Assembly (NCBI RefSeq): GCF_002846555.1
Contig: NZ_PJMS01000001.1
Coordinates: forward strand, 5,291,501-5,355,500
Length of the DNA: 64,000 bases
Direction of reading: 5' to 3'
DNA from: Aquimarina sp. MAR_2010_214
GTDB taxonomy: Bacteria; Bacteroidota; Bacteroidia; Flavobacteriales; Flavobacteriaceae
Shown here: positions 20,505-42,757 of the stretch, in pieces
How positions within the stretch are numbered: the first letter of the stretch is position 1
How the letters are laid out: each line of letters begins with the position of its first letter
Made by a program: the position numbers and the translations under genes
Notes under the pieces: generated by a model
Told to the model about the DNA's origin: nothing
Database searches by the model: none
What the model saw: the letters and a program-made list of their open reading frames with translations, nothing else

Positions 20505-23453
20505 TTAAAATGATACGTTAACACCTAATGCATAGCGTTTTGGTATTGGATACGTTAACCCGGGACTTCCTGATAAACCAATATTATTAGGATCATCATT
20601 ATCTGGATTACCTGTAACTGCTGGGTCAACACCGCTATACTTTGTAAATGTTAATAAATTATCTCCAGATACATATACACTGAAGTTGCTTATCCCTACT
20701 TTACTTAGCACATTCTGCGGTAAATTATAAGATAATGTAACATTTGTCATTCTTAAATAACTAGCATCTTCTAAATAACGAGACGAACGCTTATTAGAAT
20801 TGTTATTACCGCCTTCAACAGCTAAAGGGTGTGTTGCTATATCTCCCGGCTTTTCCCACCTGTTCCAATCATCTGCTAATACTTGCTGATTAAAGGTAGT
20901 GTAGACTCCGTCTGAGTCAAACAATTCTCTAGCACCATTGTATAGTTTACCTCCTTTAGAGAAATTAAAATTGGTAGAAAGTGATACATTTTTATAGCTT
21001 AGTCTAGAATCAAATCCTCCTATAAAATCTGGTGAGGATGCATCAACAACTTGTAGAGTAGCATCATTCCAATTACTAGTTTCAGTTCGTTCTCCAGTAT
21101 CAGGATCAACAACTTCCCATAGTGGATTTCCATTGTCGGGATCAACACCTAACCATTTTCTTATATACCATGAACTAGAGTCTTCTCCGATTTTAAATAT
21201 TTTGGATCCTCTAGGGATTTCTGTTTGTCCATCGAACAACTCTGTAATTTCATTTTTGTTAAACCCAATGTTAAATCCTAGATTCCATTCAAAATTTTTA
21301 TTTTGTATAACATCGACCGAAATCGCAGCTTCATATCCAGTATTGGTAAGCCCTCCTACATTCTCCCAAAATCCGCTATATCCAGTAACATCAGGCAAAT
21401 TCACGAAGTACAACAGATCAGACGTGTCTTTGTTATAATATTCAAACGTTGCGCTTACCTTATCAAACAATCTAGTGTCGATCGCAATATTTGCTTCATA
21501 CGATTTTTCCCAACTTAAATCTGGATTTCCTAATTGATCTAATACTGCTCCCGGAGTACCAATATATTGTGTATTTAACCTATATGTTCCTTGGTATGGG
21601 TATAAAGATGATGGTCTGTTTCCTACAGATCCATAACTCGCGCGTAATTTAAGTTCATTAATAACATTTCTATTAAAAAAAGCTTCATTATGTATGTTCC
21701 ATCCTGCTCCTATTGAAAAGAAATTACCGTATTGGTCATCTAATCCAAAATTTGAAGCTCCATCTCTACGTATAGAAGCTTTTAGATAATATCGATTGCT
21801 AAACCCATAATTAGCAGATAGAAAAAATGATTGTAAAGCATAATCGTTCTTGAATCCACTTATCTCTCCAGTTTCACTTGCTACATTTAAAACTTCTGTT
21901 CCTGCAACAATACCATTACCCGTTACATCTACATTTTCATATTTATAATCATTATACTCATATCCTCCTAAAGCAGTTATAGAATGCTCTTCGAACACAT
22001 TTGAATATTGTAATGTCTGGGTTGTTAATTTGGTAAATCGCTCGTCTATCCTATCACTTATGCTACCACCAGTGGCTAATCCAGAAATTGATCTGGGATC
22101 TGTGTATGCTTTTGATTTATAGCGATAATATGTAAAATTATTTACTGATTTAAAAACCAGGTTGGGAACAACTTGATACTCAAAATCAAAATTAGAACTT
22201 AGGTTAAATGTATTATTAGAGAAGTAGTTCCATTGCTGATCATGTAAATAATTTCTTTGGTCTCTACCTAACCAATCAGAAGCTTCTTGTGCATTAATTG
22301 GTTTACCTTCTGCATCATAAGGATTATCCCAAGGTAGGTTTAGATACAATTCGTATAAGGGAGCCTCTGCAATTTTGTCTCTGTTATCAAAGCTAAATGA
22401 CAGTTTAGGGCTTATTTTTAAACGTTTCGTAATATCATAATCTAAATTCATTCGATATGTATACCTATCCAATTCATTCCCTCGCAAGGTTCCTGTTTCA
22501 TTGTAATATCCTCCATTGATAAATAGTTTCAGTTTTTCGGTTCCCGAAGTAAATGATACATTTACATCCTTAACAAAACCATCTTGAGTTCCGTTTTCGA
22601 TCCAATCATAATTTCGATCTAATAATTCTGGAGCAAACCAAGGTTGAGAATTTGAGAATTGTGTATGATACTCATATAATTGTCGCGAGTCCATAACTTC
22701 AAATTTCCCAGTATTAAATGTGTTTATAGCTACTCTTGAACTTACACTAATTTCTGACTTACCTGAAGTTCCTCGTTTTGTAGTAACGATAACTACACCA
22801 TTTGCACCACGAGATCCATAAAGTGATGTCGCAGAAGCATCTTTAAGTACGGATATAGATTGAACATCATTTGGGTTAATTATAGGTATACTATGTTGTA
22901 TTACACCATCAACCACCCACAATGGAGTTACTCTACCTCCTAGAGACGAAGAGCCTCGTATTAATATATTTGGCACAGATCCCGGGCTACCACTAGAAGC
23001 TCCTAAACGTACTCCCGCAACTTTTCCTTGTAACATCGTAGTCACATCGGGAGTTGTAACATCTTTTAGTTCTTCTGATTTGATACTCACTATCGATGAG
23101 GTGATTGTTTCTTTCTTTTGTGTACCATAGGCTACAACAATGATTTCTTCTAATTGGCTAACATCTTCTTGTAGGGAAACATCTATTTTTGTTTGATCAT
23201 TTACCACTATTTCTTGTGTAATAAATCCTACATAAGATATTTCAAGAACATCTTTTTCTTTCGTGTTTATGGTATAATTTCCATCAAAATCTGACGTAGT
23301 TCCTTTTGTAGTGTTTTTAATTATAACAGAAGCTCCTACAACAGGTCTGCCTGATGTGTCATAAACTGTTCCCGTTATCGTTTTTTCTTGAGCTAATATG
23401 TTACTTGTAAGAGTACATATAAGGATCAATAGGGTAATCTTTAATTTTTCCAT
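20505..23453 (-). CDS. susC: SusC/RagA-family TonB-linked outer-membrane transporter
   Basis: 982 residues. Signal peptide MEKLKITLLILICTLTSNILAQ, then a carboxypeptidase-D-like regulatory domain (TITGTVYDTSGRPVVGASV, GNYTI, LEISYVGF, residues 24-105), the SusC-specific EEIIVVAYGTQKKE box, the plug domain (LQGKVAGV, VPNILIRGSSSL, SISVLKDASATSLYGSRGANGVVIVTTKRG) and a long beta-barrel ending in LGVNVSF with a terminal aromatic. It imports oligosaccharides across the outer membrane using TonB energy together with SusD. It lies 18 bases after the glycosidase gene, so both are cotranscribed from the divergent regulatory region at 24.8-25.2 kb. Confidence 0.96.
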   Translation of the reverse strand: MEKLKITLLILICTLTSNILAQEKTITGTVYDTSGRPVVGASVIIKNTTKGTTSDFDGNYTINTKEKDVLEISYVGFITQEIVVNDQTKIDVSLQEDVSQLEEIIVVAYGTQKKETITSSIVSIKSEELKDVTTPDVTTMLQGKVAGVRLGASSGSPGSVPNILIRGSSSLGGRVTPLWVVDGVIQHSIPIINPNDVQSISVLKDASATSLYGSRGANGVVIVTTKRGTSGKSEISVSSRVAINTFNTGKFEVMDSRQLYEYHTQFSNSQPWFAPELLDRNYDWIENGTQDGFVKDVNVSFTSGTEKLKLFINGGYYNETGTLRGNELDRYTYRMNLDYDITKRLKISPKLSFSFDNRDKIAEAPLYELYLNLPWDNPYDAEGKPINAQEASDWLGRDQRNYLHDQQWNYFSNNTFNLSSNFDFEYQVVPNLVFKSVNNFTYYRYKSKAYTDPRSISGLATGGSISDRIDERFTKLTTQTLQYSNVFEEHSITALGGYEYNDYKYENVDVTGNGIVAGTEVLNVASETGEISGFKNDYALQSFFLSANYGFSNRYYLKASIRRDGASNFGLDDQYGNFFSIGAGWNIHNEAFFNRNVINELKLRASYGSVGNRPSSLYPYQGTYRLNTQYIGTPGAVLDQLGNPDLSWEKSYEANIAIDTRLFDKVSATFEYYNKDTSDLLYFVNLPDVTGYSGFWENVGGLTNTGYEAAISVDVIQNKNFEWNLGFNIGFNKNEITELFDGQTEIPRGSKIFKIGEDSSSWYIRKWLGVDPDNGNPLWEVVDPDTGERTETSNWNDATLQVVDASSPDFIGGFDSRLSYKNVSLSTNFNFSKGGKLYNGARELFDSDGVYTTFNQQVLADDWNRWEKPGDIATHPLAVEGGNNNSNKRSSRYLEDASYLRMTNVTLSYNLPQNVLSKVGISNFSVYVSGDNLLTFTKYSGVDPAVTGNPDNDDPNNIGLSGSPGLTYPIPKRYALGVNVSF

Positions 23454-29858: not shown

Positions 29859-29875
29859 TTGCAACTTTGGTGCAA
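29859..29875. promoter_or_regulatory. TTGCAAC-N3-GGTGCAA palindrome before the small His/Cys protein
   Basis: TTGCAAC (29859-29865) and GGTGCAA (29869-29875) are inverted arms with one mismatch. The start codon follows four bases later. The same TGCAAC-N3-GTTGCA layout occurs upstream of the LanB gene (42048-42062). A metal-dependent Fur-family repressor site is one reading; overlap with a TTTGCA-type promoter element is the alternative. Confidence 0.4.
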
Positions 29876-29879
29876 TTAC

Positions 29880-30227
29880 ATGAAAAATAAAAAGACTTTC
29901 TATTCAGTTATTATATTTCCATTATTAACATGGATATTGTTATTAGTGTTTCTTGCTAATCCAATAGTTGAAAGTTTTCATCATCTTATAATTTCACATT
30001 CTAACACTAATTCGATTTCTTCTCATACCGAGTTACATTCTTCTACTCCTAAGTGTGTTGTATGTAATTTTGTAATGAACAGAAAAGTCTTTTACTTTTT
30101 TTCTAATCCATTTACCACAGAGGCTACATTGAAGAGCATCGTGCATTTTACTCCATCTTTGGATGAGTCTATCTATGCATTTGACCTTCTTATTTTCCCA
30201 TTAGCCAATAGTCCTCCTCTATCCTAA
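29880..30227 (+). CDS. small membrane-anchored protein with His and CxxC motifs
   Basis: 115 residues. The ATG at 29880 is used; the frame extends seven codons upstream without a good start. A signal-anchor (SVIIFPLLTWILLLVFLA) is followed by a periplasmic part with the clusters ESFHHLIISHS, ISSHTELHSS and PKCVVCNF. The layout resembles small DUF2946-like proteins that precede metal-related TonB receptors, with a His-rich stretch and a CxxC pair suited to binding zinc or copper. It is the first gene of the plus-strand transporter/receptor run of the lanthipeptide cluster and has a palindrome right before its start. Function unknown; a metal role is inferred. Confidence 0.55.
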   Translation: MKNKKTFYSVIIFPLLTWILLLVFLANPIVESFHHLIISHSNTNSISSHTELHSSTPKCVVCNFVMNRKVFYFFSNPFTTEATLKSIVHFTPSLDESIYAFDLLIFPLANSPPLS

Positions 30228-30389: not shown

Positions 30390-31088
30390 ATGTTGCAAGC
30401 AATTGATCTTACAAAAAAATATCATGACCATATCGCTTTAGACAGTTTAAACTTAACCGTAAATCAAGGAGACATTTTCTGTCTACTTGGTCAAAACGGA
30501 GCAGGAAAAACAACAACTATTAACCTGTTTTTAGGCTTTATAACTCCTTCTAAAGGCAAGGCGCTTATAAATAGTGTTGTAGTTCATCAAAATGATAAAA
30601 CAACTAAAAAATCATTAGCATATATACCCGAAGTGGTAATGTTGTATAGTAATTTGACCAGTATTGAAAACTTAGATTTTTTTAGCAGACTTGCTGGTTT
30701 CAAATATTCTAAAGCTGAATTAGAACATTTTCTTACATCTGTAGGTTTACCAACAGCTACTTTTTATAAACGTTTAGGATATTACTCTAAAGGAATGCGT
30801 CAAAAAGTTGGAATAGCCATTGCTATTGCCAAAAATGCTGATGTTTTATTAATGGATGAACCTACATCCGGTTTGGATCCAATAGCCATAAATGAATTTA
30901 CAGAATTAGTAAAAAAATTAGGCCGACAAGGGAAAACTATTCTCATTGCAACCCATGATCTTTTAAACGCAGTAACTATAGGAAACAGAATAGGGATAAT
31001 GCGTCGAGGCAGCTTGATACACGAATTGTCTGATGCCAAAATTAATGCAAACGAGCTACAAAAATTATACTTAAAAACTCTATCATAA
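30390..31088 (+). CDS. ABC transporter ATP-binding protein (exporter of the RiPP cluster)
   Basis: 232-residue NatA-type ATPase. Walker A GQNGAGKTTT, Q-loop region, signature YYSKGMRQKVGIA, Walker B VLLMDEPTSGLD and the H-loop IATHD are all intact. It pairs with the two DUF3526-type permeases that follow (7 and 3 bases apart) to make an ABC-2 transporter. In the context of the lanthipeptide genes it most likely exports the modified peptide or confers self-protection. There is no peptidase C39 domain, so it would not cut the leader itself. Confidence 0.9.
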   Translation: MLQAIDLTKKYHDHIALDSLNLTVNQGDIFCLLGQNGAGKTTTINLFLGFITPSKGKALINSVVVHQNDKTTKKSLAYIPEVVMLYSNLTSIENLDFFSRLAGFKYSKAELEHFLTSVGLPTATFYKRLGYYSKGMRQKVGIAIAIAKNADVLLMDEPTSGLDPIAINEFTELVKKLGRQGKTILIATHDLLNAVTIGNRIGIMRRGSLIHELSDAKINANELQKLYLKTLS

Positions 31089-31095
31089 CAATAGT

Positions 31096-32490
31096 ATGTG
31101 GTCTATTATAGCAAAAAAAGAAATCAAACAACTTATTAGCAGACAGTATTTTATACTATTGAGTATCATTACTTGGTGTACGATAAGCATTTCTGTTTTT
31201 AATGGATTTAAAAATTACCAAAATATAAAACAACAGCAAGAGGATGCCCAAAAGTTATTTCAAAACGAATTATCTGAAAAAGATCGTGATCCACACTCTG
31301 CTGCTCATTTTGGGACTTATATATTCAAACCATTTACCTCTTTAAGTCTTTACGATCCTGGAGTTAATAACTATAGTGGCACTACATACAGAGTAGAAGC
31401 TCATAAACAATCAGAAATGAATTTTTCTAACATTCCTGATACTACTACAATTATGCGTTTTGGGGAACTTCCTGTTAGTACTGTTTTTCAATTATTAATT
31501 CCCTTATTAATTATTTTTATTTCTTTCTCTTCTATTTCAAAAGAAAGGGAAACCGGGACCTTAAAAATTCTTTTTTCTCAAGGTTTACATCATCGCTCTT
31601 TAGTATGGGGAAAAATTTTTGGTAATTACTTTATTATTACACTAATTACTTTACCTGTTTTTATATGTATTCTAATTACAGGAGTATCTAGCACTGAACT
31701 ATTCATTAAAGCTATATCATTTTGTATAGCATATAGTATCTATTTTTTTATAATCACCAGTATTTGCGTGCTTATTTCTTATCAAACTAAAACTTCTAGA
31801 AACTCCTTACTATCACTTCTTTGTATTTGGATTTTATTGTGTGTCATTTTTCCAAAACTTGTTGCTAGCATTGCTGAAACAAAATACCCTCTTATCTCTT
31901 ATCATAAATTTAATAAGCAAATTGATCATGATTTTTCTTTTGGGGTACATGAAGATGGTACATACAATGAGCGAAGAAAAAAAACAGAAACTAAACTACT
32001 TGCTCAATACAATGTAGATAGTATTTCTCATTTACCTATTAATATAGATGGTGCATTATTACAAGCTTCAGAGGATTATAATAGTAAGATCCATCACCTT
32101 CGATCTATTCCTATTTCACAACAAATGGAACGGCAAAAATCCATGTTCAAGATAGCCGCTTTCTTTACTCCTTATATTTCAATACATCAAGCATCTATGG
32201 CTTTTTCCGGAACCGATTTATATCATCATCAGGATTTTCATAAAAACGCCAAAATATATCGTGATGATTTTGTAAAAACATTAAATGCAGAACTTACCAA
32301 AATCCCAAAAAACAAAGAACATACTGTAAGTACTGAATTTTTAAAGAACATGAAAAAATTTAACTATGAGCAACCCTTGATCAGGTTTGTATTCGGTAAA
32401 CAATATCTAGTATTTATCTCTTTCTTTTATTGGTTGGCGCTACTAATATTTCTAATTGAAATTAGTATTAAAAAGAACAATATTCTATAA
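31096..32490 (+). CDS. ABC-2 permease subunit, DUF3526-type
   Basis: 464 residues. One hydrophobic helix near the N-terminus (YFILLSIITWCTISISVF) is followed by a periplasmic stretch, then five helices in the block about 130-260 starting with FQLLIPLLIIFISFSSISKERETGTLKILFSQGL (the ABC-2 coupling region), a large extracytosolic domain (about 265-435) and a final helix (YLVFISFFYWLALLIFLIEI). This arrangement fits DUF3526-containing permeases common in Bacteroidota RiPP and gliding-type loci. It forms a heterodimer with the next gene and uses the ATPase encoded just upstream. Confidence 0.82.
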   Translation: MWSIIAKKEIKQLISRQYFILLSIITWCTISISVFNGFKNYQNIKQQQEDAQKLFQNELSEKDRDPHSAAHFGTYIFKPFTSLSLYDPGVNNYSGTTYRVEAHKQSEMNFSNIPDTTTIMRFGELPVSTVFQLLIPLLIIFISFSSISKERETGTLKILFSQGLHHRSLVWGKIFGNYFIITLITLPVFICILITGVSSTELFIKAISFCIAYSIYFFIITSICVLISYQTKTSRNSLLSLLCIWILLCVIFPKLVASIAETKYPLISYHKFNKQIDHDFSFGVHEDGTYNERRKKTETKLLAQYNVDSISHLPINIDGALLQASEDYNSKIHHLRSIPISQQMERQKSMFKIAAFFTPYISIHQASMAFSGTDLYHHQDFHKNAKIYRDDFVKTLNAELTKIPKNKEHTVSTEFLKNMKKFNYEQPLIRFVFGKQYLVFISFFYWLALLIFLIEISIKKNNIL

Positions 32491-32493
32491 AAC

Positions 32494-33930
32494 ATGAAGA
32501 CTATTTTTTTATTTGAATGGAAAAAATTGATCCGAACACCTTTCAATATTTTACTTCTACTATTCTATATCAGTTTAGGAATCTATAGTATTCACTATGG
32601 AAATAGTGTCACAAAAAAACAGATGCTAGCTATTCATGATTTAGAAAATTTATACGAAGAACAAGTTAAAACCACTATTGGCTATTTTAATGCAGATACT
32701 ACTATTACTGAAAATAAGACTTCATATCATAAAGCTATCCAACCAATTTGGATAGAACATCTAGTTAAGCCTGTTGCTACATTTCGTCCGAATTCTTTTT
32801 CATCAATGGCTATTGGTTATAGGGATGTACTTCCTTTTTACAAAGAAATTTCTACAACAGATAACTCTCTACATATCTATCAAACGGATATTTCAAATCC
32901 AGAAATATTAGCCGCAGGTAATTTTGATTTATCCTTTGTAATTATCTACTTGATTCCTTTACTAATAATAGTTTTCTGCCATAATATAATTTCTGAGGAA
33001 AAAGAACAAGGAACATATACTATACTTAAACTACAAAGTAATCATCTTCGAAAAGTACTCTCATACAAATTACTATTTAGGTTCCTACTTATTATAATAC
33101 TTACTTGTATTCTAAATACAATTGCTATCTATAGTGCTCCATCATCTACTCCTGTAGCTATTCTGGATTTTCTATGTTGGCAATTTGTAGCGATATGCTA
33201 TTTATTTTTTTGGTTTGTTATTTGTTATGTACTGATCTCATTTCAGAAAAACTCTGTAGTCACGTCTTTATATATGACGGGAACATGGCTATTATTAAGC
33301 ATTATTATCCCTTCACTTTTCATTTTTTATATTGACGTTTTGTATCCTATTGGGATAAAAGCCGATATGGCATCTGAAAAACGAAAGATCAAAGAAAGTG
33401 TTTGGAATCTTGAACCTAAAGTGCTCATTAAAAAATTTCGCGATCATCATCCAGAATATGGATTAGAAAATCCCAATGATACTTTAAAATATAGTGCGAA
33501 ACATTTTGTTGCCTATTATGAAGAACTCGAAAATCAACTTGCACCTATAGCCAAAATTCACAAAGACAAGGCTAATAAACGGAAAAAATTAATATCTAGA
33601 CTTTCAGAATTTGTACCCACTTTAAAAGTTCAAAAAACATTAAATCAAATTGGCAGTACTGATTTTAAGAGTTATACATACGTTGAAGAGTCTACATTTT
33701 CTTTTCAGGAAAAATGGAAAAAATTTATTTATCATTTCATCTTCAATGATAAACACGTACAGGTAAAAGACTACTTAACAATGCCTAAATACGCTTTAGG
33801 TAATTTACAAAAACCATATAAAGAAATTTTAATAAGTGTAGTAGAACTCATCCTACTCACTCTCATTTTAATCTTCTTACAAAGATACTTAACACTCAAA
33901 CCTAACAAACATTTAAAATTTAAAAAATGA
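32494..33930 (+). CDS. ABC-2 permease subunit, DUF3526-type (second)
   Basis: 478 residues, same topology as the preceding permease: an N-terminal helix (TPFNILLLLFYISLGIYS), an ABC-2 block with VIIYLIPLLIIVFCHNIISEEKEQGTYTILKLQ, further helices to about residue 290, a charged external domain and a C-terminal helix (LISVVELILLTLILIFLQ). The pair is probably a heterodimer from an old duplication. The stop overlaps the start of the TonB receptor by four bases (ATGA), so transporter and receptor are translationally coupled, a strong sign that they serve the same molecule. Confidence 0.82.
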   Translation: MKTIFLFEWKKLIRTPFNILLLLFYISLGIYSIHYGNSVTKKQMLAIHDLENLYEEQVKTTIGYFNADTTITENKTSYHKAIQPIWIEHLVKPVATFRPNSFSSMAIGYRDVLPFYKEISTTDNSLHIYQTDISNPEILAAGNFDLSFVIIYLIPLLIIVFCHNIISEEKEQGTYTILKLQSNHLRKVLSYKLLFRFLLIIILTCILNTIAIYSAPSSTPVAILDFLCWQFVAICYLFFWFVICYVLISFQKNSVVTSLYMTGTWLLLSIIIPSLFIFYIDVLYPIGIKADMASEKRKIKESVWNLEPKVLIKKFRDHHPEYGLENPNDTLKYSAKHFVAYYEELENQLAPIAKIHKDKANKRKKLISRLSEFVPTLKVQKTLNQIGSTDFKSYTYVEESTFSFQEKWKKFIYHFIFNDKHVQVKDYLTMPKYALGNLQKPYKEILISVVELILLTLILIFLQRYLTLKPNKHLKFKK

Positions 33931-36065
33931 ACAAGTTCAGTTTAATTCTTCTATTAATCATAGTAAACTCTGTAAATGTCTGGGGACAAGTACCAAAACA
34001 AAAAGAGGATTTAGAAAAAGAAAAAAAAATCAATGTACTGCCAGATGTAATCATCACCGAAAATAAACGGAAGGTAAAAAATGACACGACCTCTTCTACC
34101 TTAAAAATAGGCGTGCCGTTAATAGAAATTCCTCAAAATATTATTAGTGTATCTGCTGCTCTTTTAAAAGAGCAAGGAGCATTTGTTTTAAAAGACGCTG
34201 CTCGTAATGCAAGTGGTGTATATTTTGGTCTAAATAATGATGTCTTTGATGGCGCAGGTAATTTATACTTAAGAGGTTTTACTCAAAACGGGATTTTCAG
34301 AAATGGCCTTCCTAGCGGAAATTTTAGAGGATCTCAAGACGATGAAGCTGTAATAGATCGAATAGAATTTATTAAAGGCCCCGCAGGTTTTTTAGGTTCT
34401 AAAGGTGAAGCTGGCGGGAAAATTAATATCGTCACAAAAACACCCGGGAATTCTAGGATTATAAATGCAACCTTAACCGGAGGTAGTTATAATTTTTATA
34501 GAGCAGCAGTCGATCTAGGTTCTATTGTGAAAGAAAAAGGGTTTTCTTATCGTTTTAACGCTGCGTATAATTATCAACAATATTTTGTAGATATCATGAA
34601 GATGCACAAATTTATTATCGCACCGGTTATACAGTACAATTTTAGTAAACGCACTTCTATTTTAGCAGAATATGTCCTAAATAATCAAAATGCTATTGCC
34701 GGATCCACTTTTACCAAATTTTTTCCTACAGATAAATTATTAACCGACGATAGAAGGGCTAATTATCTGGCAGACCCTGGATTACCAAACTCTACTTCTA
34801 AAGCGCAAAATGCACGACTGGTACTTAATCATGAATTTAATGATAACTGGAAGATGACACACCAATCTTCATATTCTAAAACACCCGCAGATACCTGGTC
34901 TTTCTTATCTGAAGAAACATACAATGCTGTAGGTTTTGATGAAAATGGAAGAACAAATAGGTTAGCATGGAATTCTTTTACAAATAGTGAAACATTATCG
35001 ACTCAGTTTTTTGTGAACGGAAAATTTAAAATCGGAAAAAAAATAAAACATCACGTGTTAGTCGGAACTGAGTATGCTAGATCAAAAGATTCTACATATC
35101 AGAGTTTTGGTCTTAAATCATTTTTATTTGATATCAATAATCTACAATATGGTCTAGACAGAAACGAACTTTTGGATCAAGAAGCATTTTTAATTTACAA
35201 GTCCGACAATAATTTTTTAGCAGCATATCTCTATAATAATATAAAAATTGGCAAAAGATTGATTGTAGATTTTGGAGGGCAATATACGTATAACGAAAAC
35301 AAAACTATTTTCAATACAGAGGCTGCGACTACCTTTGATCAAAAAGCGTTCACCCCAAGAGTTGGTATAACCTATATGATAGACAAAAACACATCTGTCT
35401 TTGCACTGTATGATGAAAGTTTTGTTCCCAAAAACGGCCAGGATAAGCAAGGTAATCTATTTAAGCCAATACGCGGACAGGATAAAGAAATAGGAATTAA
35501 AAGAAACTGGTTTAATGGATTGTTATCTACTTCGGTAACTGCTTTCAATATTTCTAGAAACAATATGACTACTCAAGATCCTACTGATCCATTATTCAGC
35601 GTACAACTAGGGCAAGTTGTAAACAAAGGTATTGAAGTTGATGTTATAGGAAATATTACCAAAAATATATCTATATCTGCAAATTATGCATATACCAAAG
35701 GAACAATAACTAAGGACACAAATCCTGCTATTGTAGGGCAACTTTCTTCTTTCTCTCCTAGAGAACTTATCAATAGTTGGGTGCGCTATACATTTCCTGC
35801 AAATGTATTCCCTGGTTTTAGTTTAAGTCTTGGGAATACTTCTATCGTAAAAAGAGCAACAAATACTGTAGATGCTTTTCTTCCAGATTATTCCAAATTT
35901 GATGGATCTATTGCATATACGAGAGGGAAATTCACGACTAGATTACTACTAGACAACCTTACCAATAAACGATATATTCTAACAGGAGATATATATGAAG
36001 GTAATGCATATTATACAGAAGGAGCTCCTTTTAATTTCAAAATTTCGTTAAGTGTTAAGTTATAG
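33927..36065 (+). CDS. TonB-dependent receptor, siderophore type
   Basis: 712 residues. Signal peptide MNKFSLILLLIIVNSVNVWGQ, a plug (about 60-170: IPQNIISVSAALLKEQGA, NLYLRGFTQNGIFRNG, IDRIEFIKGPAGFLGSKGEAGGKINIVTKTPG) and a 22-strand barrel ending in FNFKISLSVKL. It lacks the carboxypeptidase-like N-domain of SusC proteins and matches the FhuA/FecA siderophore group. Directly coupled to the ABC exporter and followed by the lanthipeptide precursor, it may take up the peptide, perhaps as a metal complex, or serve in sensing or immunity. The uptake role is inferred from gene order. Confidence 0.88.
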   Translation: MNKFSLILLLIIVNSVNVWGQVPKQKEDLEKEKKINVLPDVIITENKRKVKNDTTSSTLKIGVPLIEIPQNIISVSAALLKEQGAFVLKDAARNASGVYFGLNNDVFDGAGNLYLRGFTQNGIFRNGLPSGNFRGSQDDEAVIDRIEFIKGPAGFLGSKGEAGGKINIVTKTPGNSRIINATLTGGSYNFYRAAVDLGSIVKEKGFSYRFNAAYNYQQYFVDIMKMHKFIIAPVIQYNFSKRTSILAEYVLNNQNAIAGSTFTKFFPTDKLLTDDRRANYLADPGLPNSTSKAQNARLVLNHEFNDNWKMTHQSSYSKTPADTWSFLSEETYNAVGFDENGRTNRLAWNSFTNSETLSTQFFVNGKFKIGKKIKHHVLVGTEYARSKDSTYQSFGLKSFLFDINNLQYGLDRNELLDQEAFLIYKSDNNFLAAYLYNNIKIGKRLIVDFGGQYTYNENKTIFNTEAATTFDQKAFTPRVGITYMIDKNTSVFALYDESFVPKNGQDKQGNLFKPIRGQDKEIGIKRNWFNGLLSTSVTAFNISRNNMTTQDPTDPLFSVQLGQVVNKGIEVDVIGNITKNISISANYAYTKGTITKDTNPAIVGQLSSFSPRELINSWVRYTFPANVFPGFSLSLGNTSIVKRATNTVDAFLPDYSKFDGSIAYTRGKFTTRLLLDNLTNKRYILTGDIYEGNAYYTEGAPFNFKISLSVKL

Positions 36066-36077
36066 AGAAATGTTGTT

Positions 36078-36108
36078 AATTAAAATGCAACTAAGTTGCG
36101 TTTTAATT
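36078..36108. terminator. 14-base inverted repeat, terminator-like, after the TonB receptor gene
   Basis: AATTAAAATGCAAC (36078-36091) pairs with GTTGCGTTTTAATT (36095-36108) with one mismatch and a TAA loop. The A-stem-T form fits a bidirectional intrinsic terminator. Its core TGCAACTAAGTTGCG also resembles the palindromes at 29859 and 42048, so a regulator site is possible too. Confidence 0.5.
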
Positions 36109-36128
36109 AATTCTTGCTTATTTTTAAA

Positions 36129-36164
36129 TGTTGCAACAAAATGGGATAAGCCAACCCCATTTTT
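36129..36164 (+). promoter_or_regulatory. leader of the precursor gene: TGTTGCAACA palindrome and hairpin
   Basis: TGTTGCAACA (36129-36138) is a perfect 10-base palindrome. It is followed by AAAATGGG (36138-36145) pairing with CCCATTTT (36156-36163) and a further TATT, a terminator-like hairpin ending 27 bases before the precursor start. It could act as an attenuator in front of the peptide gene. Confidence 0.4.
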
Positions 36165-36190
36165 ATTAGGCATAATTTAAAATTAAAAAC

Positions 36191-36382
36191 ATGAAAAATT
36201 CAAAAAGCAAATTAACATTAGATGAGTTACAAGTAGAGAGTTTTGTAACCAGTATCAGCTCTGAAGTATCAAAACATATTGCTGGAGGTGTTTTAGCACA
36301 CCCTACCCACACAGGCGCAACAGATCGTCATGCAGGATGTACTTGTGCAAATCGAGTACAAGGTCCAGCCTTTGATTTATAA
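36191..36382 (+). CDS. pinensin-like class I lanthipeptide precursor
   Basis: 63-residue precursor. The leader MKNSKSKLTLDELQVESFV (residues 1-19) and TSISSEVSKHIAGG (20-33) has the KLTLDELxVESFVT phrase typical of Bacteroidota (pinensin-type) class I lanthipeptides and ends in a double-glycine motif. The predicted core (34-63) contains four Thr (39, 41, 44, 51), two Cys (50, 52), three His (37, 40, 47) and no Ser, so at most two methyllanthionine rings can form. Split dehydratase and LanC-like genes face it 26 bases downstream on the other strand. The core composition is unusual for a membrane-active lantibiotic and would suit metal binding; that part is inference. Confidence 0.85.
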   Translation: MKNSKSKLTLDELQVESFVTSISSEVSKHIAGGVLAHPTHTGATDRHAGCTCANRVQGPAFDL

Positions 36383-36388
36383 AATTTT

Positions 36389-36427
36389 ATGCGGGTTATT
36401 GTTATATTTAGCCCGCATATTTTTTTG
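36389..36427. terminator. bidirectional terminator between precursor and LanC-like gene
   Basis: ATGCGGG (36389-36395) pairs with CCCGCAT (36412-36418), followed by ATTTTTTTG. The loop contains the stop codon of the minus-strand LanC-like gene. It ends both converging transcripts. Confidence 0.7.
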
Positions 36428-38366
36428 CTTCTACAAAATTCTGTTCCATAAAATATTTTAGCTGTTGTATAAATTTTTGCTGTAGTATTTCTTCATTATT
36501 TGTTTCTAACTTCCTTTTTAGTAACTCTATTACATTATAAAGCGTTCTTGGCCTTTTCAAAATATCGAGTAAAAATGCACTTGATTGACTAATAGGGAAT
36601 TCGTAAACGTGATGTCTACCTAATCTTAATAGCACATTATAATCACCTTTATTATCATATTGGTTTTCTAAACAAGCCTTTTTATCTGATTGTGCCCATT
36701 GCCATTCACAGTTTACTATCTTAACATGTCTACTTATCTGAAATTTATATTCATGAAATATGCTAAAATCCTGACTCTCAAATTTGGACAATTGTTCTCT
36801 AAAAAAATCTCTTTTATGTTCTCTATATATATTATAATTGACATTGATATGCATATCAATGATTATACTTTCTAGTTTAAAAATATCCATAGCCATCCTC
36901 TTTTTTTCTTCATCCAAAACTTTGATCAACCCTAAAATCTTTCTAGAGAAACCTCGACTATTAAATCCATTATACCCACTTTCATAAACTTTGTCTACAC
37001 AAATACCATTATTTTCTAAAAACCAAATAGTACGTTCTAAATATTTCTCATAAATACTCTTTTTAAAACTTGCCAAAGTAATTTTGCTTTCAGGTGGTAA
37101 TTGTTTTTTTGATTTAATTTTTGGCAGCAGTATAGAATCTATATTTTCATTTAATAGTTGTAAAAACAAATGTCCTATCCCTGAGGTACCAACTAGCAAA
37201 GCAGGATCTGATTTATTTGAGTACCATCCTGATCCATAAAAACTGTTACTCTCTCTATAGTCAATTGCTTTTTTCGCTAAGTTTTTAGCTTCTTTCATAA
37301 ATGATTCCTCTTTTAGAACTCGAGAGGTAGTGAGTAATAACTCTATCCATGAACCCAAACCTGTACTCAATGTATAATTGGGTATATCCTTCTCTTTTTC
37401 TATATCAGAAATTGTATTAGACACTGCCCTTATTGCAGAAATTTTATGTCTTTTCTTTTTAAGGATTGTATACGCATTACACCTTGAAAGTCCTATTCCT
37501 GAATTACCATGTGCCCAGGCATTCATACTTTTTTCATTTTCTAAATAGTACGATAGCCCCTGTTCTAAAGCTAAGTCTTTTATTTCGGGATTATCAGAAA
37601 CTCGCATATCTACCCAGGAAGCTAAAGATACGCTGTAGTACTCATCTTCAAACGCAAAAGCTTTTTCTGCGACCCATTTTAATTCTGAATAATCTAAAGC
37701 CTCTCCTACTTCTAATAAAACATGTGCAATACCACATGTACCATGGGACATTCCTATTAAACTATCTATGGTACCACTAACATAACCCCATTTGAGTCCG
37801 TATTTTGAGATACGGGCATTCCTTATTAATCTTTCTACAAGTACTCGAATAACACTTTCCTGTTCAGGGTCTTGGGTATACGTATACAGTAAAGTTATTA
37901 CAAAAAGATTTCCGGCATTTCCGCTTAACAGATCATCCAATTCAACCTTATCAATGATTCCGTTTTTAAGACTCAAAAACAAGGCATTAGCTGTTTCTAA
38001 ATCTGAAGGATTTCCTGAAACCTCATACAGTTTAATCAAAGTATAGATAACTCCAATTGTTCCTGTATAAAAAGTATAATATTTAATGGGCAATGTTTCT
38101 ATATGAGAAACTGTCCAGGCAATACTTTTTTTTGCTATTTGTAAGTATTCTTCATTGTTAGTATACTTATATAAGGAAATAAAGAATAAGGAAATTCCTG
38201 AAACTCCATTATAAATTTCTTCATTAACCTGATTATAAAAATCTCCATAAGGTTCTTTATGTAGTGTTTCCCAAAACAATCCATTTTCGTCTTCTTTTGA
38301 AGCTTTAATCAATTCTTCTGCAATCCATAAGACCTCATCATGTATACATTTTTCTATTTCATTCAT
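36408..38366 (-). CDS. LanC-like protein with C-terminal extension; zinc ligands missing
   Basis: 652 residues. Residues about 1-420 are a LanC-type alpha/alpha barrel with repeats YNGVSGISLFF, TGTIGVIYTLI, GNAGNLFVI, GMSHGTCGIAHVLLE (His208), AWAHGNSGIGLSRC and LLVGTSGIGHLFLQ. In cyclases such as NisC zinc is held by Cys of WCxG and by Cys-His of CHG; here these are Ala285 (WAHG) and Leu391-Val392 (LVG), so zinc-based cyclisation looks impossible or altered. The rest (about 430-652) is an extension whose end (YNVLLRLGRHHVYEFPISQ, SSAFLLDILKRPRTLYNVIE) resembles a PqqD-like leader-binding (RRE) winged helix. It overlaps the dehydratase C-domain gene by eight bases and probably binds the peptide with it. 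Confidence 0.78.
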   Translation of the reverse strand: MNEIEKCIHDEVLWIAEELIKASKEDENGLFWETLHKEPYGDFYNQVNEEIYNGVSGISLFFISLYKYTNNEEYLQIAKKSIAWTVSHIETLPIKYYTFYTGTIGVIYTLIKLYEVSGNPSDLETANALFLSLKNGIIDKVELDDLLSGNAGNLFVITLLYTYTQDPEQESVIRVLVERLIRNARISKYGLKWGYVSGTIDSLIGMSHGTCGIAHVLLEVGEALDYSELKWVAEKAFAFEDEYYSVSLASWVDMRVSDNPEIKDLALEQGLSYYLENEKSMNAWAHGNSGIGLSRCNAYTILKKKRHKISAIRAVSNTISDIEKEKDIPNYTLSTGLGSWIELLLTTSRVLKEESFMKEAKNLAKKAIDYRESNSFYGSGWYSNKSDPALLVGTSGIGHLFLQLLNENIDSILLPKIKSKKQLPPESKITLASFKKSIYEKYLERTIWFLENNGICVDKVYESGYNGFNSRGFSRKILGLIKVLDEEKKRMAMDIFKLESIIIDMHINVNYNIYREHKRDFFREQLSKFESQDFSIFHEYKFQISRHVKIVNCEWQWAQSDKKACLENQYDNKGDYNVLLRLGRHHVYEFPISQSSAFLLDILKRPRTLYNVIELLKRKLETNNEEILQQKFIQQLKYFMEQNFVEAKKYAG

Positions 38367-39255
38367 CTATATTATTATTCTCTAAACATTTATACAATAA
38401 ATACACAAGGAAAGCTTCGTCTGTATTTATAATTCCCAGACGGTTATGCGTCATATGCATAAAACTAGTTGCGATACTTGACTCTATAGATAAGTTGAGT
38501 TGTTTATTACTATATCTCTTACCTACATCCTTATTTTCTAAATAATATGTATTTAACACAATATCTTCAGGAGCACTGGTTTTAATATCTTTTAAGAATG
38601 TACAAACAGCAAATACCATTTGTTGTTTATATATATCAAATTTTTTGGAAAATTCTGAAAGAAAAAATTGTTGCTGTTCTTCTTCTGGTTTTGAAATATC
38701 ATATAAAGAAGGAAGCCATTCCTGAATAAAAAACTTACAGGTTTTTTTCATATCTTCATCACTGAAACCCATACTTACGAAGGAAATCAAATGCATTTTT
38801 ATTGCTAAAAAAAAAGCTGTGTTATCTTTCCAGTTTTTAGAATATTGCAGTAAACTCTTCAAGGCAACTTCAGAACAGGACTCAAATTGTAATTCTGCTG
38901 CACTAATTACCTCCATACCTCCATACCTATCTACTTCAGGAGTATACTCAACAAGTCGAATACCGCTATTTGGACATCCTTTGTCTGTTACTAAACTATT
39001 TTCTTCAAAATAGTATGCTTCTCTTTCCTCTTGCAGTCTCTTTTTCCATTTTCTTTCAACATTTTTTTTTACCAATAATCTTAATCGTATATGTGGCCCA
39101 TCTTCGTAATATCTTATAAAAAAATATCTCAACAACTCTTTTTCAAGCTTCATTTTTTCTAAAAAAGGTTGAACAAACTCAATAAGAAATTCATTTGCTG
39201 ATTTCTCATGAAACAGATATGCAGAAATCCATATGTGCTGATCTACGTTTACCAT
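38359..39255 (-). CDS. lantibiotic dehydratase elimination domain (SpaB_C / thiopeptide-type protein)
   Basis: 298 residues with the SpaB_C signature: WISAYLFHEKSANEFL at the start, YFFIRYYEDGPHIRLRL, EYTPEVDRYGGMEVISAAE and a C-terminal helical region. It is the glutamate-elimination half of class I LanB, which turns glutamylated Ser/Thr into dehydroamino acids; in NisB both halves are one chain, here they are separate genes. It starts three bases after the glutamylation-domain gene and overlaps the LanC-like gene, so the three are one translationally coupled modification unit. Confidence 0.88.
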   Translation of the reverse strand: MVNVDQHIWISAYLFHEKSANEFLIEFVQPFLEKMKLEKELLRYFFIRYYEDGPHIRLRLLVKKNVERKWKKRLQEEREAYYFEENSLVTDKGCPNSGIRLVEYTPEVDRYGGMEVISAAELQFESCSEVALKSLLQYSKNWKDNTAFFLAIKMHLISFVSMGFSDEDMKKTCKFFIQEWLPSLYDISKPEEEQQQFFLSEFSKKFDIYKQQMVFAVCTFLKDIKTSAPEDIVLNTYYLENKDVGKRYSNKQLNLSIESSIATSFMHMTHNRLGIINTDEAFLVYLLYKCLENNNIDE

Positions 39256-39258
39256 GTC

Positions 39259-41964
39259 TTATTTAAAATACCATTGCACCAAAAGTTCATTAACCGGTTG
39301 TTCTTTTAATATTTCTGTATCGGGAGACATCTCTTCAAAATAAATATATTCCTTAGCTCTTTTAAGTAGTTTATTCCATAATACTATTAGTAACGGAGTA
39401 TCAAATCGAATATATTGTGGTTTATAATCATCTGCTGCTCCTTCTCCTTTTGTAGCTGAATTTGCACGCAGATATAAAAAAATCTGATTCGGAAGATTAT
39501 GTTTTTGCCTCCAATGGTTAATGCTTAAAAAATAATCCGCATCACTTTGTTGTTCTCCTTTTTGAGGGATAGATGTTGTAAGTACCGACCATCTTCTTCT
39601 TTTTAGAATGATCTGTTTGTTATATACTAATCTGGGGAAATAATAAATTTCACGTTTGGGAGATCGTTCCTTATCATCAAATAATAATTCTTGAACAGCC
39701 CTTTGTATAGGTCTAAAACTTACTGATTGATCTGGAGAAAAACATGCTAGAAGCTGGTACAATTTTGATCGATGATCCAAAGACTGGAGGCATAAATCAA
39801 ATGGTAAAATTCGTTTTCCGCTAATAGAATGTTTTAAACATACTTCTTCACTATTTTTATCATAATAAACCAGAATATCTTTTACTGCAATTTGAGAATC
39901 CATCGGTAAACTGGTATGCCCATCCGGGATTTTAATTTCATAATCTAACAAAGGTGGATGAGAATTTGCGTTAAAATAAGAGCCGTCACTTAACTCCATA
40001 AACAAAACACCTTTAGAGTTTTGTATATTAAACATTTTCAAATCTCCAGAAACTTCTGGGTCAAAAAGGTGTAAGAATCGACCAACAGCTCTTCCCAAAC
40101 CCTGAGAAACACTATTTATTACTGCTTGAAAATTGCCTTTATTATGAAACACTTGTGTAAACATTGCTCGAGAAACCAGAGTCGTTTTTCTATGTGTTTT
40201 CCATTGTTTTAACATGGTATAGATCATTTCTTGATCTATACATATTTCTGTATCAGCTTCATTAATTGCCGGTTTTATAATCTGTTTAAAATCTTCAATC
40301 CATTTGCGATACGTATCATTATAATTTTCTTGATGTTTATCAAGGTATTCATCGCTTTCTTTATGATCCTGTTGTGGTTTTTTTATATGCGTATAATAAA
40401 GTTCATAAAAATCCAGGAGATTTGTTTCTGAATTTTCACCATATTGATTTAAATAAAAAGACTTTATTCTATTTCTTTCCTCTTGAAAACTATCTAAAGG
40501 CTGCAATAATTTGATAAGGCAGTTTACATCTTCTATGATTTTTGTAAGCAGAACCTTACTCACTTTTCCTCTATTTTCAATAAAACTATCTTCATATATT
40601 AGTTTTTCTGTAGTAAGAGATGGAAGTATATATGGATGTTTTCTAAATTTTTCTGTATCAAATATTTTCTTATACTGTTCCTTATAGTCTTTATAGTCTT
40701 TTTTGAAAATATTCATGCTTTCTAAAAAAAACTCAAATAGCACATTAAATTCCTGAAACATTTCCTCTAGAATTATACTCCTCTTGTTCGTATTAGAACT
40801 CGCATACATTTCACAACAAGTACTTTGTTTTTCTAAAACTGATATTGTTTTTTTCAGAGCATGTGAAGGGCTATCAATTTTTCTAAGAAAGCTTAATAAT
40901 TTCAAACTCCAATCCGGATCTATTCCTGAAGTTTGAAAATCAAACTCTAAAAGACCAATTTCAATAAGTTTCAATATATACTCCTTAATTTGGCGGGAAT
41001 TCCCTTCTATAGATTCTTGTAGCTTTTCTATAAACTCATGCATTCGTATAGAACCGCTTTCTTTTACAGTCTGCAACAGTAATTTTATGCTACCTGTATT
41101 CGCAATACTTTGAAAGGATTCTAGATTGTGAAAATTAATAAGAAAAGATATTTTCTTATCCTTTTCATGAATAGTTGGATTGAGCTGAAGGTATAACTGT
41201 TCGTTAATTTCTGGATCTAAAACAAGTAACCTTTTTAAATAATCAAATATATCATTATTCAGTCTTATTTTACTACATACCTCTCCCCTTGCAAGTGTAT
41301 ATACGTCTTCTTTTTCGACTAAATCACATAGTCCTAAATGTGTAAACGTACTAAAAGGAGAAGTCTTAAAATACATTCTGGTCATGTACCTTAATAAACT
41401 ATATTCTAATCTTGCTTCTTTTTTTCCATAGGACGACATTTCCTTTTTAAGAAATGTATCTAATTGGGTATAAAAAACTTTACTCGATAATCTAACTCCT
41501 TTTTGAAAAAGCTCATTTCTTGATAATTCTCGAATTATAGTCCGATATGTTATACTATTTCTTTGATAGTTATTTTGCCATTCTAGAAGCAGCTCCTCTT
41601 TCTTATGTTTTACAGAAATATATGCTTCAAATTCTTTTTTGTTTTTTGTACTTAATAGCTTCAGAAGTTTATCTCTATCATGAAGACTAATATTTCTAAA
41701 ATTGTAAATATCTCTTTTTATATTTATAAAAAACTGTTTTTCGGTAGATGTATGTGCATCTTTTACTGCGGTATGTAGATAATTACAAATCTTATCTCTT
41801 AAGATGTCACCCTCTACTCTTAAGGTATTCATTTCTCTTACGACACTATCTACTTCATCACATTTAAGGTGCTCAAATTCCGAATGATGCCCAGAAGCAT
41901 ATCGTATAAAAGAATATGGGAAAATTTCAAATTCCTCTAAATTATCTGTATTATTTTCTTTCAT
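39259..41964 (-). CDS. lantibiotic dehydratase N-terminal (glutamylation) domain, split LanB
   Basis: 901 residues, matching the Lant_dehydr_N region only. Conserved segments include SFIRYASGHHSEFEH at the start, YMTRMYFKTSPFSTFTHLGL, RLNNDIFDYLKRLL, VSRAMFTQVFHNKG and VYNKQIILKRRRWSV, where the positively charged part binds glutamyl-tRNA. It uses Glu-tRNA to activate Thr/Ser side chains of the precursor. The elimination domain follows as a separate gene. It is the first gene of the minus-strand modification operon; upstream lie an 84-base leader and the palindrome at 42048-42062. Confidence 0.88.
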   Translation of the reverse strand: MKENNTDNLEEFEIFPYSFIRYASGHHSEFEHLKCDEVDSVVREMNTLRVEGDILRDKICNYLHTAVKDAHTSTEKQFFINIKRDIYNFRNISLHDRDKLLKLLSTKNKKEFEAYISVKHKKEELLLEWQNNYQRNSITYRTIIRELSRNELFQKGVRLSSKVFYTQLDTFLKKEMSSYGKKEARLEYSLLRYMTRMYFKTSPFSTFTHLGLCDLVEKEDVYTLARGEVCSKIRLNNDIFDYLKRLLVLDPEINEQLYLQLNPTIHEKDKKISFLINFHNLESFQSIANTGSIKLLLQTVKESGSIRMHEFIEKLQESIEGNSRQIKEYILKLIEIGLLEFDFQTSGIDPDWSLKLLSFLRKIDSPSHALKKTISVLEKQSTCCEMYASSNTNKRSIILEEMFQEFNVLFEFFLESMNIFKKDYKDYKEQYKKIFDTEKFRKHPYILPSLTTEKLIYEDSFIENRGKVSKVLLTKIIEDVNCLIKLLQPLDSFQEERNRIKSFYLNQYGENSETNLLDFYELYYTHIKKPQQDHKESDEYLDKHQENYNDTYRKWIEDFKQIIKPAINEADTEICIDQEMIYTMLKQWKTHRKTTLVSRAMFTQVFHNKGNFQAVINSVSQGLGRAVGRFLHLFDPEVSGDLKMFNIQNSKGVLFMELSDGSYFNANSHPPLLDYEIKIPDGHTSLPMDSQIAVKDILVYYDKNSEEVCLKHSISGKRILPFDLCLQSLDHRSKLYQLLACFSPDQSVSFRPIQRAVQELLFDDKERSPKREIYYFPRLVYNKQIILKRRRWSVLTTSIPQKGEQQSDADYFLSINHWRQKHNLPNQIFLYLRANSATKGEGAADDYKPQYIRFDTPLLIVLWNKLLKRAKEYIYFEEMSPDTEILKEQPVNELLVQWYFK

Positions 41965-42301
41965 AATTATTTAAAATATCTTAGGGCTATGCTTATATTT
42001 TTTAGTTCAAAAATTTATTATGAAAAAAATAAATCAAACAACTTTTATGCAACTATGTTGCAATATAGGAATTGTTTTTTGAAAGTGAAAATGCATGGAA
42101 TAAGCTCTCAGTCATGAAGTAGATTCCCTGTTCTTAAACCGCTTCATTACCCTGAAACGGGAGGTAAGGCTTAAAATGTTAATCTCTTAAGAAAATAAAC
42201 TATACCTTTTGTGAAATTGATATTTATATTCATAGCTATTCACTAATTTTACAATACTCTTTTACTTAATATGCTAATAAATGATTAAGTTTGCGACAAT
42301 T
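41965..42301. other. 337-base divergent gap between lanB and the Fur-family gene
   Basis: It holds the TGCAACTATGTTGCA palindrome, a structured stretch at 42097-42167 (GGAAT/ATTCC, ATGAAG/CTTCAT, TTACC/GGTAA pairs) and, at 42286-42293, TAAGTTTG, an exact TAnnTTTG -7 element for the Fur-family gene. No coding sequence is seen. Confidence 0.5.
42048..42062. promoter_or_regulatory. TGCAAC-TAT-GTTGCA perfect palindrome upstream of lanB
   Basis: Six-base arms with a three-base spacer, lying 84 bases upstream of the lanB start and 240 bases upstream of the Fur-family gene. The same layout, with one mismatch, lies before the His/Cys protein (29859-29875) and after the TonB receptor gene (36086-36100), so it is a candidate site of a shared regulator, most simply the adjacent Fur-family protein. 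Confidence 0.5.
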
Positions 42302-42757
42302 ATGGATAAAGAATTTACTAGTCTTTTAGAGAAACATCAGTTAAGAAAAACAGCACCACGTTTATCTGTACTTTCTATTTTAAAATCAAGAAAAACAGCT
42401 ACCTCGCAACCTGAGCTTGAGGCAATGATTGGAAAAGATGTAGATAGAGTTACTTTATATCGAATCCTTAAAACTTTTGAAGAAAAAGGAATCATTCATA
42501 AAATACTGGATCTTAACGGAACTGCTAATTATGCCATTTGTGAATCTTCCTGCAACGAGCATGATCATAAAGATAATCACGTACATTTTAACTGTACTGT
42601 GTGCTTGGATATTTATTGTTTAGAGAATTTACAAATTCCAAATATTAAAATGCCTTCAGGTTTTGTTCCTCATACTACAAATCTTATTGTTTATGGTATA
42701 TGTGAAAAATGTTCTGAAAAAGCTGAACAATATGTAAATTCTAAAAGCAATAAATAA
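42302..42757 (+). CDS. Fur-family metal-responsive repressor
   Basis: 151 residues from the ATG at 42302; an in-frame ATG at 42281 is less likely because a TAAGTTTG promoter element covers its first codons. The winged helix (LRKTAPRLSVLSILKSRKTATSQPELE, DRVTLYRILKTFEEKGIIHKI) is followed by a dimer/metal domain with CNEHDHKDNHVHFNCTVC, DIYCLENL and CEKCSEK, giving two CxxC pairs for a structural zinc and several His/Glu/Asp ligands for the sensing metal. Fur, Zur and PerR cannot be separated by eye; the ligand pattern and the palindromes in the neighbouring cluster make Zur or Fur plausible. It would link the lanthipeptide cluster to metal supply. Confidence 0.82.
   Translation: MDKEFTSLLEKHQLRKTAPRLSVLSILKSRKTATSQPELEAMIGKDVDRVTLYRILKTFEEKGIIHKILDLNGTANYAICESSCNEHDHKDNHVHFNCTVCLDIYCLENLQIPNIKMPSGFVPHTTNLIVYGICEKCSEKAEQYVNSKSNK

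Follow-up and report, generated by a model that had tools for sequence, protein, structure and literature searches.

A pinensin-type lanthipeptide system of Aquimarina with a zinc-type operator is a candidate zincophore system

The window analysed here, a stretch of 64,000 nucleotides from Aquimarina sp. MAR_2010_214 (bases 5,291,501-5,355,500 of a 5.98 Mb single-contig genome), contains a class I lanthipeptide gene cluster of the pinensin type whose nearest named relative is that of Aquimarina muelleri. On balance we consider it likely that this cluster and the transport genes beside it form a system induced by zinc starvation whose lanthipeptide most likely acts as a zincophore, a function that is probable on the sequence evidence assembled below. 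Judged by strand, spacing and operators, the system appears to be arranged as three transcription units: unit A (forward strand), with genes for a small His/CxxC protein, an ATP-binding cassette (ABC) ATPase, two ABC-2/DUF3526 permeases and a TonB-dependent siderophore-type receptor; unit B (forward strand), the precursor gene at 36191-36382; and unit C (reverse strand), LanB1, LanB2 and LanC, running from 41964 back to 36408. An initial annotation of this DNA had recognized the pinensin-like precursor, the split LanB and the LanC-like genes, all of which are confirmed by profile matches, but had let the cluster start at 33927, whereas its first unit begins at about 29860. Its idea of a metallophore gains strong indirect support from an operator, from the genes in that operator's company, from the co-occurrence of the receptor and from the loss of the zinc site in the cyclase, and can be narrowed to zinc; nothing was found pointing to the iron or copper that it had also entertained.

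The palindrome TGCAACnnnGTTGCA, which had escaped the initial annotation, stands before all three transcription units. When the 64 kb were searched with TGCAACWNNGTTGCA, sites with no or one mismatch were found only at 29860, 36086 and 42048, and 200 first-order Markov simulations of the window gave a mean of 0.05 sites with at most one mismatch and never reached three. The first site, TGCAACTTTGGTGCA (29860..29874, one mismatch), lies a few nucleotides ahead of the ATG of the His/CxxC gene; the second, TGCAACTAAGTTGCG (36086..36100, one mismatch), lies upstream of the precursor gene, its flanks forming a terminator-like hairpin; and the third, TGCAACTATGTTGCA (42048..42062), is perfect and occupies the region common to lanB1 and a divergent Fur-family gene (42281..42757, forward strand; PF01475). 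The latter, one of four Fur-family genes in the genome and already noted as a neighbour in the initial annotation, encodes a candidate Zur. The exact pattern is present in 34 of 52 genus genomes, with 64 forward hits versus 5 for a reversed control (table summed by hand). A selection of further sites in this genome (15-base form, at most one mismatch) includes one at 21909 heading a TonB receptor-M3 peptidase-HupE/UreJ_2 unit (L017:6911-12423, one mismatch), a candidate second zinc uptake unit, and one heading a MerC-FolE-...-CobW-CobW-MacB-like ABC series (L170:14244, one mismatch); a site at 2949307 has a TonB receptor on one side and an S8 protease on the other, and one at 1172792 precedes a secreted S8 protease. 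S8 subtilisin-like proteases follow the operator in this genome and several relatives (L016:8309-9727, L015:6548-9810 and L030, Pfam-confirmed; L031, L036, L037, L040 and L049, by eye), perhaps as zinc-free substitutes for metalloproteases in zinc shortage.

The metal to which this operator answers is suggested by the genes that it accompanies. CobW/COG0523 proteins together with FolE, MerC and MacB-type ABC transporters constitute a zinc-starvation set. With 30 of the genus hits taken as loci, the Pfam-confirmed neighbours of the operator include CobW (L028, L034), MerC (L051, L053), FolE (L050) and CysS (L032), as well as a Fur-family gene (L053); in L042 and L043 it adjoins an ABC ATPase resembling that of the window, and MacB-like ABC and HupE_UreJ proteins are further neighbours. 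Starting from CobW instead, sites with at most one mismatch were found within 400 nt upstream in 8 of 29 genus loci (30 given, one dropped for want of the motif), with 2 sites in the remaining 57,858 nt, and in 12 of 28 loci from 20 pinensin-type genomes (30 given, two dropped), with 6 sites in the remaining 56,219 nt. Divided by eye, the latter fall into a VTVLSGFLG subtype, in which 12 of 19 have the site, and other CobW proteins, in which none of 9 does. In a Hymenobacter metagenome-assembled genome (MAG; L101), MerC, a Fur-family gene and CobW neighbour the cluster, and the operator there is perfect. By this company, in which CobW, FolE, MerC and the MacB-type ABC are the hallmarks of a Zur regulon, the operator is probably of the Zur type, and zinc regulation appears well supported. 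An iron (Fur-box) reading was set aside on the same grounds, the operator's company being zinc-type; no separate scan for iron boxes was made.

Control by zinc would also be compatible with a peptide that serves as metallophore for a different metal (Fe, Co, Cu or Ni) and is expressed in zinc starvation. For Pseudomonas aeruginosa, passages of PMC11481552 describe PA2911-PA2914 and PA4063-PA4066, the latter a MacB-type ABC operon, as regulated by zinc via Zur and link them to pyochelin and cobalt, and the receptor of the window likewise matches siderophore receptors. The operator's gene company nevertheless fits zinc, and the LanC of the cluster is without a zinc site that its relatives keep, so that we regard another metal as distinctly improbable.

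We then compared related clusters. A LanC profile led to 79 loci (from the best 80 of 183 relatives), of which 50 were analysed together with the window, giving 51 loci and setting aside 29 (L103-L106, L108-L132); a receptor was called window-like at a phmmer E-value of 1e-5 or below. A precursor with an [H/E][P/E]THT core is present in 35 of the 51, from Aquimarina, Pedobacter, Chitinophaga, Sinomicrobium, Fulvivirga and [Flexibacter] sp. as well as Sphingobacteriaceae, Flammeovirgaceae and Hymenobacter MAGs. The initial annotation had proposed to look for co-conservation of receptor and precursor, counting its absence as a refutation, and a window-like receptor indeed occurs in 33 of these 35 loci versus none of the 16 others. 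In 20 of the 33 the locus stops within the receptor gene, so that it is seen partly, and L101 has a more distant receptor subtype (E 6e-37). Of the two loci that have none, L061 shows another TonB receptor behind an operator at the locus edge, and in L091 the contig ends about 2.2 kb past lanA. DUF3526 permeases are likewise found in 33 of the 35 and in none of the 16, where other receptor types were not counted and absence is weak evidence in five loci of at most 12.2 kb. The operator follows the same division: it lies upstream of lanA or the lan unit in 33 loci, and at least one site is present in all 35 (106 sites in 741,655 nt), while the other 16 hold one stray site in 261,294 nt and the nine of them that are Bacteroidota by title hold none in 155,674 nt. 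The palindrome has 103 sites in 34 of the 35 loci, where 40 permuted versions of it averaged 1.7 sites and had at most 15.

The receptor itself (33927..36065, forward strand) scores 231.6 bits against the TIGR01783 cut-off of 223.5, in agreement with its earlier description as siderophore-type, and its relatives in the PDB are the enantio-pyochelin receptor, FhuA and CntO. Its start lies within the stop of the second permease (ATGA, 33927-33930), the translational coupling that the initial annotation had pointed out. A window-like receptor stands directly upstream of lanA, on the same strand and at about 70-130 nt, in 12 loci; in the 21 other receptor loci the permease/receptor unit lies beyond the lan unit and runs divergently from it. 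An outer-membrane receptor tied to biosynthesis, as expected of a zincophore, is thus found in 33 of the 35 loci and immediately before lanA in 12. Upstream of the receptor gene, on the same strand, unit A comprises the His/CxxC gene (29880..30227), the ABC ATPase (30390..31088; PF00005) and the two ABC-2 permeases with DUF3526 (31096..32490, PF12679 and PF12040; 32494..33930, PF12040 and PF12679). The His/CxxC protein at the head of the run was noted before, and its presence stands, but the start has to be moved: the TTG listed at 29859 overlaps the operator at 29860-29874, so that the start is most likely the ATG at 29880. This protein has no Pfam or NCBIfam match; a homologue was found by phmmer in A. 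muelleri (L054), and a similar open reading frame (ORF) heads the corresponding unit of Chitinophaga sp. YR627 (L080, by eye).

In two other genomes of the genus (L165:11058-17299, L166:2060-8332) the operator precedes an ATPase, a TonB receptor and DUF3526 permeases beside MerC-FolE-CobW; these 19-kb stretches are free of lanthipeptide genes, and neither genome has a pinensin precursor. That the module stands under the operator there without lanthipeptide genes suggests that it has a role of its own in zinc physiology; the two strains may use other ligands or the peptides of other species. Such a module could in principle also have come to lie by chance beside an ordinary pinensin cluster, its receptor then being unrelated to the peptide. 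We disfavour this as very improbable, since these components and the operator are found again in 33 of the 35 loci, across several families and in different gene orders, operators stand before the precursor and lan units themselves, and in the 52 genus genomes a close receptor and a genuine precursor occur only together, in this genome. The remaining receptor hits of that sample, in two genomes, are paralogues of 31-34% identity, and a second candidate precursor in the genus (G032) was rejected, the match lying antisense inside an ORF of 502 residues.

The pinensin leader model NF038180 scores 46.7 bits on the precursor against a cut-off of 24, and because the leader exceeds this cut-off the cluster belongs to the pinensin family as that model defines it; linkage to the C39 exporter PinT was not counted as family-defining, NF038180 being a model of the leader. 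The leader peptide (36191..36289, forward strand) has 33 residues and ends in GG, and is followed by the core VLAHPTHTGATDRHAGCTCANRVQGPAFDL with its stop codon (36290..36382). As first described, the 30 residues of the core comprise three His, two Cys and two Asp and no Ser; there are also four Thr. The window core contains [H/E]PTHT..TD and two Cys in the alignment, whose 19 sequences all share Thr39, His40, Thr41 and Asp45 (numbering of the window precursor). A total of 147 precursor homologues were found, and [P/E]TH[T/S] occurs in 86 of the 120 listed, a share that is no test, since the query alignment was already of this core type. The residue preceding it is His in 74 and Glu in 12 of the 86, both possible metal ligands; at least three His are present in 82 of the 86 and exactly two Cys in 78. 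The core thus has a ligand-rich constellation and, as far as its residues can tell, is a candidate for metal binding.

The modification enzymes are encoded on the reverse strand by the LanB glutamylation domain (LanB1, Lant_dehydr_N; 39259..41964, PF04738), the LanB elimination domain (LanB2, Lant_dehydr_C; 38359..39255, PF14028) and the LanC-like cyclase (36408..38366; PF05147 over residues 47-411). The catalytic zinc of LanC cyclases is normally held by Cys, Cys and His, the ligands of NisC. In the window LanC these are replaced by Ala285, Ser334 and Thr335, the positions having been matched via LicM2, for which the profile alignment places WaHG against WCHG and LstG against LCHG. The triad is incomplete or gone in the LanC of all 35 [H/E][P/E]THT loci (Ala-Cys-Ser in 17, Ala-Val-Ser in 11, Ala-Ser-Thr in 3 and others in 4), and the 17 LanC proteins encoded in the other 16 loci all keep Cys-Cys-His. 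In a LanC tree the two groups are parted by a single split with a support of 0.88. An enzyme that is needed in zinc shortage would gain from independence of zinc. The window LanC also carries a C-terminal extension of about 240 residues (about 420-652) that matches no Pfam model, and its relatives are similarly long.

The lanA leader carries a further conserved feature. In all 35 [H/E][P/E]THT loci it has a 5' palindromic element, in the form GUUGCAAC, AUUGCAAU or AUUGCGCAAU, followed by an H-type pseudoknot candidate, GGGG-AUAAGCCGAAA-CCCC...AGUAGGCAU, located 16-26 nt upstream of the start codon or, in L070 and L099, 73 nt upstream of it; in the window this leader RNA occupies 36127..36174 (forward strand), its pseudoknot being DUF805b-like and ending 16 nt before the ATG. 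The window copy folds only mildly better than shuffled sequences (z -1.75) and gave no DUF805b hit in Rfam at E values up to 10. A model built from 29 of the 35 leaders, in which hits are found by construction, has matches in 20 of 395 genomes of the class. Twelve of these matching loci were compared with Rfam: the cis-element DUF805b (RF02914) is matched by 10, 6 of them above the gathering score, and not by L246 (a lanA leader) and L248. On these results a pinensin-specific riboswitch was rejected; the relatives of the leader RNA in the class that match DUF805b are weaker ones, and that element lies before unrelated genes. A lanthipeptide-like precursor with Cys-containing repeats (L249:1501-1700; leader MKLKDLEVKSFTTSLTKTEE...) is also preceded by a DUF805b leader RNA, hinting at a common control of precursors of this kind.

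Together the observed genes, operators, core conservation, triad loss and co-occurrence suggest the following mechanism. In zinc-replete cells a Fur-family, Zur-like repressor would occupy TGCAACnnnGTTGCA at the three promoters. Zinc shortage would then lead to the joint expression of the precursor, of LanB1-LanB2-LanC and of the His/CxxC-ABC-TonB receptor unit. LanB would activate and dehydrate the Thr residues of the core, and the LanC variant would close methyllanthionine rings without a catalytic zinc, so that the product could still be made when zinc is lacking. A C39-type transporter would cut the leader at GG and export the peptide, which would bind Zn(II) with the side chains of its conserved [H/E]..H....D..H residues and be imported as the zinc complex by the TonB receptor; the DUF3526 ABC transporter might serve either peptide export or onward carriage from the periplasm. 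The exporter would have to be supplied from elsewhere in this genome: PinT is absent from the window cluster, the only two C39 transporters found in the genome are unlinked, and no operator was found in their 3.4-kb loci. A C39-type transporter is linked in YR627 and, by eye, in the printed Pedobacter loci.

Several observations weigh against this reading. The operator pattern is weak once it is relaxed: with up to three mismatches the window has 28 matches against 29.8 expected, so that only near-perfect sites carry weight, and a 17-base pattern with up to two mismatches had no more hits in the genome (12 and 10) than its reversed counterpart (13 and 7). A terminator scan flags 36075-36111 as terminator-like, and the palindrome at 36086 could partly terminate; the operator as a mere terminator was rejected, since at 29860 and at 42048 the palindrome has no T run behind it. 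Across the genus, many of the genes next to the operator encode S8 proteases or lipoproteins rather than zinc uptake proteins, and at the ZnuA-family loci of the genus the operator was found in 1 of 30, a chance-like site, for which reason ZnuA was rejected as a hallmark of the regulon. The single ZnuA-family protein of this genome (G000:C1:4996691-4997509, L216) has no operator nearby even with up to three mismatches, and the family seems to lie outside the operator's regulon in the genus. The receptor class can serve other ligands, given the modules of L165 and L166, and the window ABC transporter is of the ABC-2 type, usually an exporter. Finally, receptor, operator and triad loss all divide along a single split of the LanC tree and so are not independent observations; together with the [H/E][P/E]THT core they may go back to one ancient event, and all four have been kept together across proteins of about 25% identity and through rearranged gene orders.

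The exporter-like ABC transporter also enters the most serious alternative, that the peptide is an antifungal or antibacterial weapon, released in zinc shortage to free the zinc of neighbours by killing them or to compete with them, that acts by membrane damage rather than metal binding, the ABC transporter and receptor then providing immunity, sensing or import. Passages of PMC6958371 report that pinensins are active on yeasts and filamentous fungi with a minimum inhibitory concentration of 2-4 ug/mL and are weakly antibacterial, and the available text of PMC13060382, citing Mohr 2015, states that they disrupt membrane integrity, which likewise speaks against a zincophore. Cpin5321-5324 have been proposed to serve 'perception and import' (PMC10112250, in the part retrieved); import of pinensin by the neighbouring genes is therefore an earlier suggestion and not new here. 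A weapon would leave unexplained, however, both the conserved [H/E]PTHT..TD..H constellation and the TonB receptor of metallophore-receptor type that directly precedes the precursor in 12 loci, and we hold it to be unlikely, a zincophore remaining our preferred explanation.

These arguments can be extended beyond the window. Lanthipeptides are treated mainly as antibiotics or signals. We lean, by a small measure, towards the view that the HPTHT pinensins of Aquimarina, Pedobacter, Chitinophaga, Sinomicrobium, Hymenobacter and Fulvivirga are Zur-controlled lanthipeptide zincophores made by zinc-free cyclases, in which case their antifungal effect would be due at least partly to the withholding of zinc. 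If this is true, zinc scavenging would be added to the functions of the class, the retention of pinensin genes by Bacteroidota would be explained and a testable account of the 'first antifungal lantibiotics' would be at hand. The loss of the LanC zinc site exactly under a zinc-type operator predicts a zinc-independent stand-alone LanC, and TGCAACnnnGTTGCA could readily be used to mark the zinc regulon in these Bacteroidota.

The closest known system is that of pinensins A and B from Chitinophaga pinensis, which share with the window the leader family, the split LanB, the LanC-like cyclase, the GG leader, the HPTHTxxTD core and neighbouring receptor and ABC genes; the window differs in its longer core (30 residues, with a CTCAN... 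C-terminus) and in having a cluster without PinT. According to the part of PMC9248904 retrieved, Chitinophaga sp. YR627 has a core identical to the described pinensin. Its locus (L080), with a precursor ending in ...AGQSHPTHTVATDDEGHLCTTIICA, carries an operator with one mismatch at the start of PinT and another, also with one mismatch, heading a run of His/CxxC ORF, ATPase, two permeases, receptor and lanA; its LanC is without the zinc triad, and a CobW gene of this strain has a site 111 nt upstream (L204, one mismatch). Because the core is identical and the operators and the triad-less LanC are present, the findings on the window also hold for the described pinensin. The passages on pinensins that we could retrieve present them as antifungal lantibiotics, mention neither zinc control nor a zinc-free cyclase and contain no report of metal binding; the chitinocin authors state, in the passages of PMC10239826 seen, that their spectra differ from those of reported peptides including pinensins.

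Among metallophores, the Zur-controlled systems of P. aeruginosa, as far as the passages describing them go, resemble the window in zinc/Zur control (putative here), in a TonB receptor with an ABC transporter and in the separation of import and export parts, and the window receptor matches CntO (pseudopaline) and pyochelin-type receptors. The P. aeruginosa metallophores are small nonribosomal or opine-type compounds, whereas the product of the window is a ribosomal thioether peptide. Methanobactin is a ribosomal peptide tied to copper. The window peptide, a candidate in this respect, resembles both it and the bufferins (PMC12452194, retrieved in part) in being ribosomal and tied to a metal, but these involve copper and other enzymes, and the window LanB/LanC chemistry and probable zinc control. 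Cyclase domains of class III LanKC enzymes are also without zinc ligands (PMC7268733, in the passage available); the window LanC differs in being a stand-alone, class I-type enzyme without the triad, whose relatives from other clusters keep it. Our literature search, going mostly by listings, found no paper that connects pinensin or lanthipeptides with Zur or with zincophores. As far as that search reaches, three things are new: the zinc-type operator, the way it goes together with the core type and the receptor, and the loss of the zinc site in LanC.

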